Below are positions 34,666 to 39,177 of a DNA stretch of 64,000 nucleotides, piece after piece. A program made the position numbers and the translations under genes. Source of the stretch: Gammaproteobacteria bacterium (lineage in GTDB: Bacteria > Pseudomonadota > Gammaproteobacteria > JADZEE01); contig JADZEE010000106.1 of the NCBI GenBank assembly GCA_020850735.1, positions 1 to 64,000 on the forward strand, read 5' to 3'. The notes under the pieces are model-generated. The model worked only from the letters and a program-made list of their open reading frames with translations. It searched no databases and was not told the origin of the DNA. Each line of letters opens with the position of its first letter. The stretch's first letter is position 1.

Positions 34666-34744
34666 CCCACGGTTGCAGTGTTTCGCAATGTGGCCGGCTC
34701 TGACTGCCGCGAGATCCGAATTTTCCCGACTGTTACTGGCACGC

Positions 34745-35650
34745 ATGCTCGAACGTCTGAAGCAGGGCATCAATCGCTCGCGGCGCGGCTTTGCGGAACG
34801 CATTCGCGGGCTGCTCGGTGGTGGATCGGCGGTCGACGCGGCGACGCTGGACTCGATCGAGGAGATCCTGTTGACCGCCGACGTGGGCGTCGAGGCGACC
34901 GACCGGATCATAACAGAGCTGAAACGGAACCGGGATGGAGGCGAACACGCGATGCGTGCGCTGCGAGACCACATGGTCGCCATCCTCGAGCCGGTGGCCC
35001 GGCCGCTCGAAATCGTGCGCCGGCACGATCGACCGTACGTAATCCTCATGGTGGGAGTGAACGGCGTCGGCAAGACCACGACCATCGCCAAGCTGGCGAA
35101 GCAGTTCAAGGAACACGGTCACCGGGTGCTGCTCGCCGCCGGTGACACCTTCCGCGCGGCGGCGGTCGAACAGCTGACGATCTGGGGCGAGCGCCACGGT
35201 GTGCCGGTCGTGAGCCAGAAGCACGGGGCGGATCCGGCCTCGGTATTGTTCGATGCCGTGACCGCAGCGCGCGCCCGGCGACTCGACGTGGTCATCGCCG
35301 ACACGGCGGGGAGGTTGCACACGCAGTCCAACCTGATGGACGAGTTGCGCAAGGTGAAACGGGTTATCGCCAAGATCGATCCGGACGCGCCGGACGAGGT
35401 GCTGCTCGTGATCGACGCGACCACCGGCCAGAACGCGCTCGCGCAGACGCGCGAGTTCCACGAGGCCATCGGCGTCACCGGGATAGCGCTCACCAAGCTC
35501 GACGGCAGTGCCAAGGGCGGCATAGTGCTCGCGCTTGCCGAGCGCTTCGGGATTCCGATCCGTTACGTCGGCGTCGGCGAGGGCGCGAGCGACCTCATGC
35601 GCTTCGACGCGGCCGAGTATGTCGACGCGCTGCTTGCCACGGATCCGTGA
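34745..35650 (+). CDS. ftsY: signal recognition particle receptor FtsY
   Basis: [77 protein letters not shown]. Confidence 0.96.
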
Positions 35651-35663
35651 CGCCGGCGCTGGG

Positions 35664-36338
35664 ATGATCCGGTTCAGCAAAGTCGCGAAGGTGTACCCTG
35701 GCCGGCGCGAGGCGCTGCGCGAGCTGGATCTGGAGATCGAAAGCGGGGAGATGGTGTTCGTGACCGGGCATTCCGGAGCCGGCAAGAGCACGCTGCTCAA
35801 GCTCGTCGCCCTGATCGAACGCCACGATCGCGGCCAGATCGTGGTCGACGGCCAGAACCTCGAACGACTGGCGCGGCGCGAGGTGCCGTTTTTCCGCCGG
35901 CGCATCGGTTTCATCTTCCAGGACCACCGCCTGCTCGCGGACCGGACGGTATTCGACAACGTCGCGCTGCCGCTGGTGGTTGCCGGACATCGACATCAGG
36001 AGATCGGCCGGCGCGTACGCGCTGCACTCGACAAGGTGGGGCTGCTGGCACGCGAACGCGCGCAGCCGCGTGCGCTCTCCAGTGGCGAGCAGCAGCGAGT
36101 GGGCATTGCCCGCGCCGTCGTCGCACGGCCGGTGCTGCTGCTCGCGGACGAGCCGACCGGTAACCTCGACCCCGAGCTGTCATTGGAGATCATGCGCCTG
36201 TTCGAGCAGTTTCGCGCCGTCGGCGTGACGGTCGTCATCGCGACGCACGCACTGCATCTGGTCGCGGCGATCGGACACCGATCCATACGGCTGCGCGATG
36301 GCAGGCGCGCGGACGACGGCGCAGCCGCGTTGACATGA
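35664..36338 (+). CDS. ftsE: cell division ATP-binding protein FtsE
   Basis: MIRFSKVAKVYPGRREALRELDLEIESGEMVFVTGHSGAGKSTLLKL, FIFQDHRLLADRTVFDNVALPL, LLADEPTGNLDPELS. Confidence 0.96.
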   Translation: MIRFSKVAKVYPGRREALRELDLEIESGEMVFVTGHSGAGKSTLLKLVALIERHDRGQIVVDGQNLERLARREVPFFRRRIGFIFQDHRLLADRTVFDNVALPLVVAGHRHQEIGRRVRAALDKVGLLARERAQPRALSSGEQQRVGIARAVVARPVLLLADEPTGNLDPELSLEIMRLFEQFRAVGVTVVIATHALHLVAAIGHRSIRLRDGRRADDGAAALT

Positions 36339-37324
36339 GCTTGCGGCGCAAACGCAGCCGGATCCAGGGCGCGCCGGCGCGTTGGCGCGCCGACGCCTGG
36401 CTGACTGGTCACGCGCGTGCGTTTCTGTTCAGCCTCGGCCAGCTCGTGCGCGCGCCGGCGAATACGCTGATGACGGCGGCCGTCATCGGCATCGCGCTCG
36501 CGCTGCCGGCCGGATTGCTGGTGCTGCTGGAGGACCTGCGGGACCTCGGCCGGGGCCTCGACACGGAGGCGCAGGTGTCACTGTTCCTCCAGCCGACAGT
36601 GCCGGACGAGAGTGCCCGCAGGCTCGCGAGCGAGCTCGAGCGCCGGCGCGACGTGGCTCGGGTTGAAGTGATCGACCGGCTCGCGGCGCTGGCCGAATAC
36701 AGCCGTGCCAGTGGATTCGGGGAAGCGGTCGCGCTGCTCGACGAAAACCCCTTACCCGCGGTGCTGGTCGTGCACCCGCGCGCCGACGCGTCGACGGCCG
36801 CCGCCGTGGAGGCGTTCGCGGCAGCGATGGAGCGCCGGCCGGAGGTTGCGGTGACGCAGGTGGATCGGGCCTGGCTGCAGCGCCTGCATGCGATGACGGC
36901 GCTGGCTCGCCAGGCGGTGCTGGTCCTGGCGGTGCTGCTCGGTGTCGCCGTACTGCTGGTGGTGGGAAACACGATCCGGCTCGGCATCGCAAATCGCCGC
37001 GCGGAAATCGACATTGCACAACTCGTAGGCGCTACCGACGCCTTCGTACGCCGGCCGTTTCTCTATCATGGTGCGCTGCTGGGCGTGTTCGGGGCGCTGA
37101 TGGCCTGGGTCACCGTAGTCGCGAGCCTGCTCGCCCTGCAGGGCCCGGTCAGCCGGCTCGCGAGCCTCTACGGCAGCGGGTTCTCACTCGGCGGGCCCGG
37201 CCTGGCCGGTGCGCTGCTGCTGCTGCTCACGGGCGGCGGGCTCGGCCTGCTCGGCGCCTGGGTTGCGGTGGCGCACCAGCTCGCGTCGCTGCGCCGCCGT
37301 ACCGGCAGCTGGTTCGTAGAGTAA
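36335..37324 (+). CDS. ftsX: cell division protein FtsX
   Basis: Follows ftsE with ATGA overlap; four TM topology; LVGATDAFVRRPFLYHGALLGVFGALMAW. Confidence 0.93.
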   Translation: MSLRRKRSRIQGAPARWRADAWLTGHARAFLFSLGQLVRAPANTLMTAAVIGIALALPAGLLVLLEDLRDLGRGLDTEAQVSLFLQPTVPDESARRLASELERRRDVARVEVIDRLAALAEYSRASGFGEAVALLDENPLPAVLVVHPRADASTAAAVEAFAAAMERRPEVAVTQVDRAWLQRLHAMTALARQAVLVLAVLLGVAVLLVVGNTIRLGIANRRAEIDIAQLVGATDAFVRRPFLYHGALLGVFGALMAWVTVVASLLALQGPVSRLASLYGSGFSLGGPGLAGALLLLLTGGGLGLLGAWVAVAHQLASLRRRTGSWFVE

Positions 37325-37465
37325 GCGCTCACTGCGCAGTATCGAGCGTAGTGACAATGACCTTTGAAGCATGGCGATGGCGCACGGCGAGTGGCTGCGC
37401 GGTGGTCTCGGGGCCGACCGCGACGAGCCCCCGGCCCGAGCCGCCGGACGGAACCGGGGCGTGGC

Positions 37466-37492
37466 TTAGCACTCCAACCCACGGAGTGCTAA
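37466..37492 (+). promoter_or_regulatory. CIRCE element (HrcA operator) upstream of rpoH
   Basis: TTAGCACTC-CAACCCACG-GAGTGCTAA: both 9-bp half-sites and the 9-nt spacer match CIRCE exactly; overlaps a candidate promoter TTAGCA (37466-37471) - 18 nt - TAAAAT (37490-37495). Confidence 0.93.
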
Positions 37493-37529
37493 AATCACCG
37501 TCAAGGCCAACGAACGGAGGAAACTGAAG

Positions 37530-38402
37530 ATGAGCTCGATCGCTGTACCCGTGACGCTGCCGGGAGGCTCGTTGGACAGCTATATCCAGCGCGTCATCAG
37601 CTTTCCGATGCTCAGCGCGACCGAGGAACGTGAACTGGCCGAGCGCTTCCGCCGCGACGAGGACCTGGACGCCGCCCGGCAGTTGGTACTGGCGCACCTG
37701 CGGTTCGTGGTGCGCGTGGCCGCCGGCTACGGCGGCTATGGTCTCGCGCAGAGCGACCTCATCCAGGAAGGCAACATCGGTCTGATGAAGGCGGTCAAGC
37801 GCTTTGATCCGGACATGGGCGTGCGGCTCGTGTCGTTCGCGGTGCACTGGATCCGTGCCGAGATCCACGAGTTCATCCTGCGCAACTGGCGTATCGTCAA
37901 GGTGGCCACGACCAAAGCGCAGCGCAAGCTGTTCTTCAACCTGCGCCGGGCGAAAAAACGGCTCGGCTGGATGAATTCCGGCGAGGTTCGGGCCGTGGCC
38001 CTGGATCTTGGTGTCAGCGTGCGTGACGTCGTCGAGATGGAGCAGCGGCTCAACGCCCATGACGCCACCTTCGACGGCGCCCCCGAGGACGACGAGGACT
38101 GTGTGTTCGCGCCGGCGAGCTATCTGGAGGACTATCGTTACGAGCCGCAGGCGCTGGTCGCCGAAGCCCAGGTGGAGGCCATGCAGCAGCAGCGTCTGCA
38201 GGCGGGTATCGCCACGCTGGACGAGCGCAGCCGCGACATCATCGAGGCCCGCTGGCTGACCGAGCCCAAAGCCACGTTGCAGGACCTGGCCGAACGCTAC
38301 GGGGTGTCTGCCGAACGCATCCGCCAGATCGAGCAGGGTGCTTTCAAGCGCCTGCGCAATTCGCTCGCCGACGAACCGGCACTGCTGCCCGCGCCCGCCT
38401 GA
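37530..38402 (+). CDS. rpoH: RNA polymerase sigma-32 factor
   Basis: [65 protein letters not shown] (RpoH box), region 4 [29 protein letters not shown]. Confidence 0.97.
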
Positions 38403-38484
38403 GATCCCCGCGCAGCGCCGGCGACACCCGCCGGCACACGAACGACTCCGCGCGGGCCGCAGGCTCAGGCCCGGCCGCGGCCGC

Positions 38485-39177
38485 TCACTTCGGCTGCGGC
38501 TGCGCGAGGCGCTCCCGAAACCTGAGGCGCGCATGCACGGCGGCTAGGTACAAGGCCAGGAACACGCCGAAGTACAGCTCCTGCGGCTCGCTCCAGCGCA
38601 GCTCGAGGGGCAGCGGGCCGAGGTGCAGGAGATCCTTGAGGTGATCCGGCATCCGGATCAGGATCGCCAGCGCGGCCGCGGGAAAGCACAGTGGCGCGGG
38701 CCAGAACCAGGACCGCCAGTCGTCGTCGGGCCAGCGCGCGCGGCGGCGCAGCAGCGGCAGCAGGACGCCCCCCACCAGTACCCATAGCTCGAGCAGCAGA
38801 CGTGGCTTCTGGTCCAGCCAGCTCGTCATGTTGTGCAGGTTGGTTTCGTTCTGGTCGTTCAGGGCCCGGACAGCCTCGGGTGTGGCCCAGCCGAACAACT
38901 GCTGCCCCCAGCTGAGCTCTTCACCCGCGAAGTAGACGCAGCCGAGCACGACGCACGCCATCCAGGCTGCGAGCCAGCGGGCCGGCAGCAGCCGCGCGCG
39001 GCGCAGCGTGTGGATACCGTGGATGATGCCGACGACGAGCACCGCCGGGGTCGCCAGCTCAATGATCCCGAGTTCGCCGTCGAACAGTTTTCGGTACAGC
39101 GGCGCGCTGGCGATTCGCACCCCGAGCAGCACGGCCATGAAACCGAGCGGCAGCCACAACCAGGCCCAGCGTGGCAT
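38485..39177 (-). CDS. hypothetical integral membrane protein
   Basis: Multiple TM helices; FAGEELSWGQQLFGWATPEAVRALNDQNETNLHNM. Confidence 0.7.
   Translation of the reverse strand: MPRWAWLWLPLGFMAVLLGVRIASAPLYRKLFDGELGIIELATPAVLVVGIIHGIHTLRRARLLPARWLAAWMACVVLGCVYFAGEELSWGQQLFGWATPEAVRALNDQNETNLHNMTSWLDQKPRLLLELWVLVGGVLLPLLRRRARWPDDDWRSWFWPAPLCFPAAALAILIRMPDHLKDLLHLGPLPLELRWSEPQELYFGVFLALYLAAVHARLRFRERLAQPQPK

Follow-up and report, generated by a model that had tools for sequence, protein, structure and literature searches.

A perfect CIRCE palindrome, the predicted operator for the HrcA repressor, stands just upstream of rpoH in this gammaproteobacterial contig, which raises the question of how transcription of the sigma-32 gene might be controlled here. 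Textbook sigma-32 control is that of E. coli, where regulation of rpoH is mainly post-transcriptional, with sigma-E acting in addition at the P3 promoter. Comparison of rpoH upstream regions across the class suggests a different arrangement, in which HrcA would gate the transcription of rpoH from a housekeeping and an envelope-stress promoter alike, and which is probably ancestral. We give this reading, which comes from sequence comparison, a probability of nearly 0.8.

The region upstream of rpoH

The window is the whole stretch of 64,000 nucleotides that was analysed. Its features at and around rpoH are as follows.

34673..37324, + strand: ftsY-ftsE-ftsX, upstream of rpoH, an order also found before E. 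coli rpoH (ftsX-rpoH)
37450..37456, + strand: sigma-E-type −35 element GGAACCG, matching GGAACTT at 5 of 7 positions and placed at the very offset where the class profile has its peak
37466..37492, + strand: predicted CIRCE operator for HrcA, the perfect palindrome TTAGCACTC-N9-GAGTGCTAA, found by pattern search and kept upstream of rpoH in HrcA-bearing genomes
37466..37471, + strand: sigma-70 −35-like element TTAGCA, inside the left CIRCE arm, from a promoter scan
37473..37477, + strand: sigma-E-type −10 element TCCAA, formed by the last two left-arm bases and the first three of N9, with a 16-nt spacer from the −35
37487..37495, + strand: extended −10 element TGC-TAAAAT, formed by the right CIRCE arm and AAT, from the promoter scan
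37516..37520, + strand: Shine-Dalgarno sequence GGAGG, read directly
37530..38402, + strand: rpoH (sigma-32), 290 aa, containing QRKLFFNLR (TIGR02392, 401.7 bits; equivalog cut-off 323.1)

The palindrome is an exact 27-bp CIRCE, TTAGCACTC-CAACCCACG-GAGTGCTAA, in which all 18 arm positions are perfect, and 37 nt separate it from the rpoH ATG. Within the window it was the only match with up to 3 mismatches, where shuffled sequences led us to expect 0.01, and it is the sole exact copy in the whole genome (4.99 Mb in 170 contigs). The initial annotation had placed an exact CIRCE just before rpoH and a sigma-70-like promoter over it, and its description of these elements proved right in every respect that we checked. 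The promoter, TTAGCA-N18-TAAAAT, was recovered by the scan with 9 of 12 matches and a TG before the −10, and it was the only sigma-70-like promoter found in positions 37200–38500 (shuffles, mean 0.0, sd 0.2). The left CIRCE arm supplies its −35, and the right arm together with the three bases that follow supplies its −10; the putative start behind it is that of the leader of about 28 nt predicted in the initial annotation.

TTGGCA variants of the left arm were considered as proof that this arm acts as a −35 element, an argument that we dropped because groES CIRCEs vary alike and in the same orientation. The mirror position almost never varies. The RpoH protein encoded here contains QRKLFFNLR, which we take to be the segment named the RpoH box in E. 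coli, so that DnaK/FtsH feedback may act on it as well.

hrcA and the distribution of CIRCE

As the proposal of HrcA control presupposed, the genome carries an hrcA gene. There is one copy (PF01628, 226.6 bits), with a wHTH domain (PF03444, 24.9 bits; cut-off 21). CIRCE-like sites also lie upstream of groES on contigs C140 (1 mismatch), C72 (G000:C72:175-201; 2 mismatches) and C102 (3 mismatches), and in the hrcA/nadK gap (3 mismatches). A backward control pattern gave 2 matches genome-wide against 5 CIRCE-like sites, so that some of the 3-mismatch sites are possibly due to chance; despite this non-negligible background, gene context argues for them. The groES promoter on C140, CTTGACA-N12-CCCCTATA, stands immediately before its CIRCE and resembles a sigma-32 promoter. 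C72 is a 4-kb contig on which the groES-CIRCE-dsbD arrangement resembles the dsbD-groES locus of C140 in a different order. It may be of foreign origin or a contaminant, and the assembly is 5.9% contaminated.

The hrcA frame on contig C66 (L253) runs into grpE, giving a single 569-aa frame with HrcA domains and a GrpE domain. The start expected for grpE within the joined frame is a GTG with a Shine-Dalgarno-like GGGAG, and three other genomes that were examined showed a normal end of the hrcA frame. Because no stop separates the two genes, the joined frame may be either an HrcA-GrpE fusion or an assembly error.

A sample of 275 genomes was taken from the class, and their rpoH and hrcA genes were located; 200 have hrcA, and the DNA upstream of rpoH was read for 159. 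A CIRCE was counted when it had at most 3 mismatches and lay no farther than about 500 bp upstream of rpoH. The rpoH set was filled in descending order of HMM score, a choice biased toward typical RpoH. A CIRCE was present at rpoH in 116 of 125 hrcA-bearing genomes compared with 7 of 34 genomes without hrcA, a group whose membership is uncertain where assemblies are incomplete (Fisher p = 1e-16, with counts that overstate independence because the genomes share ancestry). When one genome per family was taken, which lessens but does not remove this dependence, the figures were 72 of 77 and 6 of 19 (Fisher p = 4e-8). By these counts of predicted operators, a CIRCE at rpoH is the usual arrangement in HrcA-bearing Gammaproteobacteria.

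The relatives compared share only the class with the window's source, and no genus, family or order, so that conservation is read at class distance. At that distance the palindrome is kept together with hrcA upstream of rpoH, in line with the conservation that the earlier reading had anticipated. Since all of the relatives found are of the same class only, the source appears to be an isolated gammaproteobacterial lineage. Among 80 RpoH relatives from named genomes, 35 had a CIRCE with no more than 2 mismatches upstream of rpoH, and CIRCEs were seen in records of Dyella, Woeseiaceae, Chromatiaceae, Alishewanella and Ketobacter. None was found in the Pseudomonas, Halomonas, Legionella and Aeromonas records among these 80.

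Because the CIRCE at rpoH tracks hrcA, HrcA control of rpoH is very likely. The palindrome has the arms of a CIRCE operator, occurs in a genome with hrcA and holds a promoter placement that is conserved with hrcA, all of which argues that it is one. A functional HrcA operator would be expected to be conserved along with hrcA in this way, and thus the window is not anomalous. The initial annotation had singled out the CIRCE at rpoH as a regulatory anomaly; we rejected that reading, given that the arrangement is found class-wide and was also predicted in Geobacter sulfurreducens (Rodionov et al. 2004, PMC545781). Because of that prediction, the CIRCE-rpoH pairing is itself not new. The part of the paper that deals with this site gives the same perfect operator at −51 from the rpoH start codon, with groESL and hrcA as further CIRCE genes; it concerns one site, predicted in a different phylum, and sigma-E overlap, conservation and promoter geometry are not described there.

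The CIRCE could instead be a non-functional relic, or be bound by HrcA with no effect on rpoH. Some Mesorhizobium/Rhizobium groESL operons that have a CIRCE are unaffected by loss of hrcA (PMC3989490), and the joined hrcA-grpE frames of this genome also fit such a reading. However, the arms are perfect in the window and vary hardly at all across the class, whereas the rest of the flank has diverged, and the operator has mostly been lost where hrcA was lost. We consider a relic or an inert site very unlikely.

A sigma-E-type promoter in register with CIRCE

A profile was taken from 114 rpoH CIRCEs with no more than 2 mismatches, offsets were counted among 123 rpoH CIRCEs, and 22 groES CIRCEs served for comparison. 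Besides the arms, the profile conserves GGAACTT at −16 to −10, T[A/C]A at N1–N3 and AAT after the palindrome; the flanks hold no comparable signal elsewhere. A sigma-E promoter has just this layout, GGAACTT followed by 16 nt and TC-TNA, and AAT completes the sigma-70 −10 element. The GGAACTT −35 was found at 70 of 114 rpoH CIRCEs but at 0 of 22 groES CIRCEs, TNA at N1–N3 at 67 of 114 but 1 of 22, and T at the third base after the CIRCE (AAT) at 104 of 114 but 2 of 22. In the larger set the −35 stood at −16 in 75 of 123 rpoH CIRCEs, an exact offset shared by 0 of the 22 groES sites, at −17 in 13, at −15 in 7 and at no other single offset in more than 6. At the Dyella locus (L072) the sigma-E elements are shifted, and the Alishewanella locus (L054) has no clear −35. 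The −35 and −10 elements are also coupled, as N3 is A in 66 of 75 sites with the −35 but in 27 of 48 without it (p = 9e-5; p = 0.004 with one genome per family). The groES(L) CIRCEs of the same class share the operator with rpoH and likewise combine HrcA with a heat-shock promoter. However, they directly follow a CTTGAC...CTAT-type promoter and lack GGAACTT, TNA and AAT, whereas the rpoH CIRCE overlies the promoters themselves.

The window's GGAACCG-N16-TCCAA, which the initial annotation had overlooked, stands in this class register. It corresponds to the elements of a P3-type rpoH promoter for sigma-E (RpoE/ECF02), weakly in the window itself (5/7) and strongly in the class profile, from which the case for a sigma-E promoter here is drawn. 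RpoE is encoded in the genome (297.6 bits), and the promoter of its own gene, CGAACTA-N16-TCTGA, likewise reaches 5/7 with an identical spacer. Given this match and the class register, we consider the window's sigma-E element probably active in this organism, though less certainly so than in the class. The small ORF directly behind rpoE looks like an RseA anti-sigma factor by position and sequence.

It is possible, if unlikely, that HrcA acts on rpoH through the sigma-70 promoter only, and that GGAAC/TCNNA is decayed here or a chance match. The window elements are weak to moderate, with a −35 of 5/7 and a non-canonical −10, the promoter scan found the sigma-70 element alone, and 48 of 123 CIRCE-bearing genomes have no good −35 at the exact offset. 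However, in about 20 of those 48 the motif lies one base off, the window's −35 falls at exactly the class-wide offset, and a match of 5/7 to GGAACTT is reached by 0.8% of the 7-mers in the window. The equal score of this genome's rpoE promoter also speaks against decay or chance.

A further reading takes the palindrome as mainly an RNA element, a hairpin in the rpoH leader of ftsYEX read-through transcripts that would affect stability or translation. The ftsX-rpoH gap is 205 bp and no terminator was found within it, so that read-through is possible, and the palindrome could pair as RNA. In contrast, both predicted transcription starts lie in or after the palindrome, such that the main transcripts would not contain the whole of it; its presence tracks hrcA, and the conserved promoter elements keep a fixed register to it. 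No Rfam family scored above threshold, and the leader fold was unremarkable (z −1.16), with 31 of 200 shuffles folding equally well. We rejected this reading as highly improbable.

The preferred reading, HrcA gating of both promoters, retains part of the hierarchy of HrcA over sigma-32 that had been proposed at the outset. The palindrome at rpoH does follow hrcA, but the description was incomplete: because a sigma-E-type promoter shares the same DNA, the predicted circuit is more than a repressor over one sigma-70 promoter. In the part of the literature that was covered we found no published account of a CIRCE/sigma-E composite at rpoH; PMC545781 cites a 2003 paper by Permina and Gelfand on HrcA regulons of the beta, gamma and epsilon groups.

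A model for HrcA gating of rpoH and its evolution

In the model that we propose, HrcA bound to the CIRCE at 37466–37492 would repress rpoH at initiation. Because the CIRCE overlaps two predicted promoters, a bound HrcA dimer would exclude both the housekeeping holoenzyme (TTAGCA and the extended −10 TGCTAAAAT) and the sigma-E holoenzyme (GGAACCG and TCCAA). Upon heat shock HrcA would lose DNA binding, either because it is thermolabile, because unfolded protein titrates away its helper GroE, or both; the HrcA of Campylobacter no longer binds DNA at 42 C, and GroE stimulates it (PMC8533110). Derepression of rpoH would then allow sigma-32 to be made and to drive the groES promoters, which themselves have a CIRCE. 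HrcA would in this way oppose groES both directly and through rpoH, which drives groES. Envelope stress would enter through sigma-E, gated by HrcA.

The sequence upstream of E. coli rpoH, TGAACTT-N16-TCTGA, corresponds to the known sigma-E promoter P3. It has the same −35 and −10 elements and 16-nt spacer as the rpoH CIRCE profile, but E. coli is without HrcA and has no CIRCE at rpoH (best match, 8 mismatches). Both hrcA and the CIRCE are absent from 27 genomes, 9 of which still have a sigma-E-like promoter no farther than 300 bp from rpoH, compared with 0.4 in shuffles. In Bordetella bronchiseptica, the rpoH (fam) promoter region supported transcription by SigE in vitro (PMC3490749); HrcA and CIRCE are not mentioned in that report.

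We lean toward the view that the ancestral gammaproteobacterial rpoH promoter was a composite, in which the CIRCE contained the sigma-E −10 and both sigma-70 elements and HrcA gated sigma-E-dependent and basal transcription. E. coli-type lineages would have lost hrcA and the operator and kept the sigma-E promoter P3, and the E. coli paradigm would be the remnant after hrcA loss. E. coli, without HrcA, looks like the exception among arrangements, and its rpoH layout would be derived. If the model holds for most HrcA-bearing Gammaproteobacteria, a cytosolic repressor and the envelope-stress and sigma-32 pathways would meet on about 50 bp.

Departures from the usual arrangement occur in both directions. 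Nine hrcA-bearing genomes have no CIRCE at rpoH, and seven genomes in which no hrcA was detected have one with 0–3 mismatches (G014, G036, G072, G090, G098, G121 and G194). G072 and G194 share an altered palindrome, TGTGCACTC-N9-GAGTGTTAA, perhaps the target of another regulator or a relic. In G074 and G195, two of the nine genomes that have a sigma-E-like promoter at rpoH but neither hrcA nor a CIRCE, the left CIRCE arm TTGGCACTC is retained inside the promoter and the right one is degraded. Upstream of rpoH in G008 (L129), G050 (L232) and G243 (L237), the first CIRCE seemingly has another beside it, full or partial.
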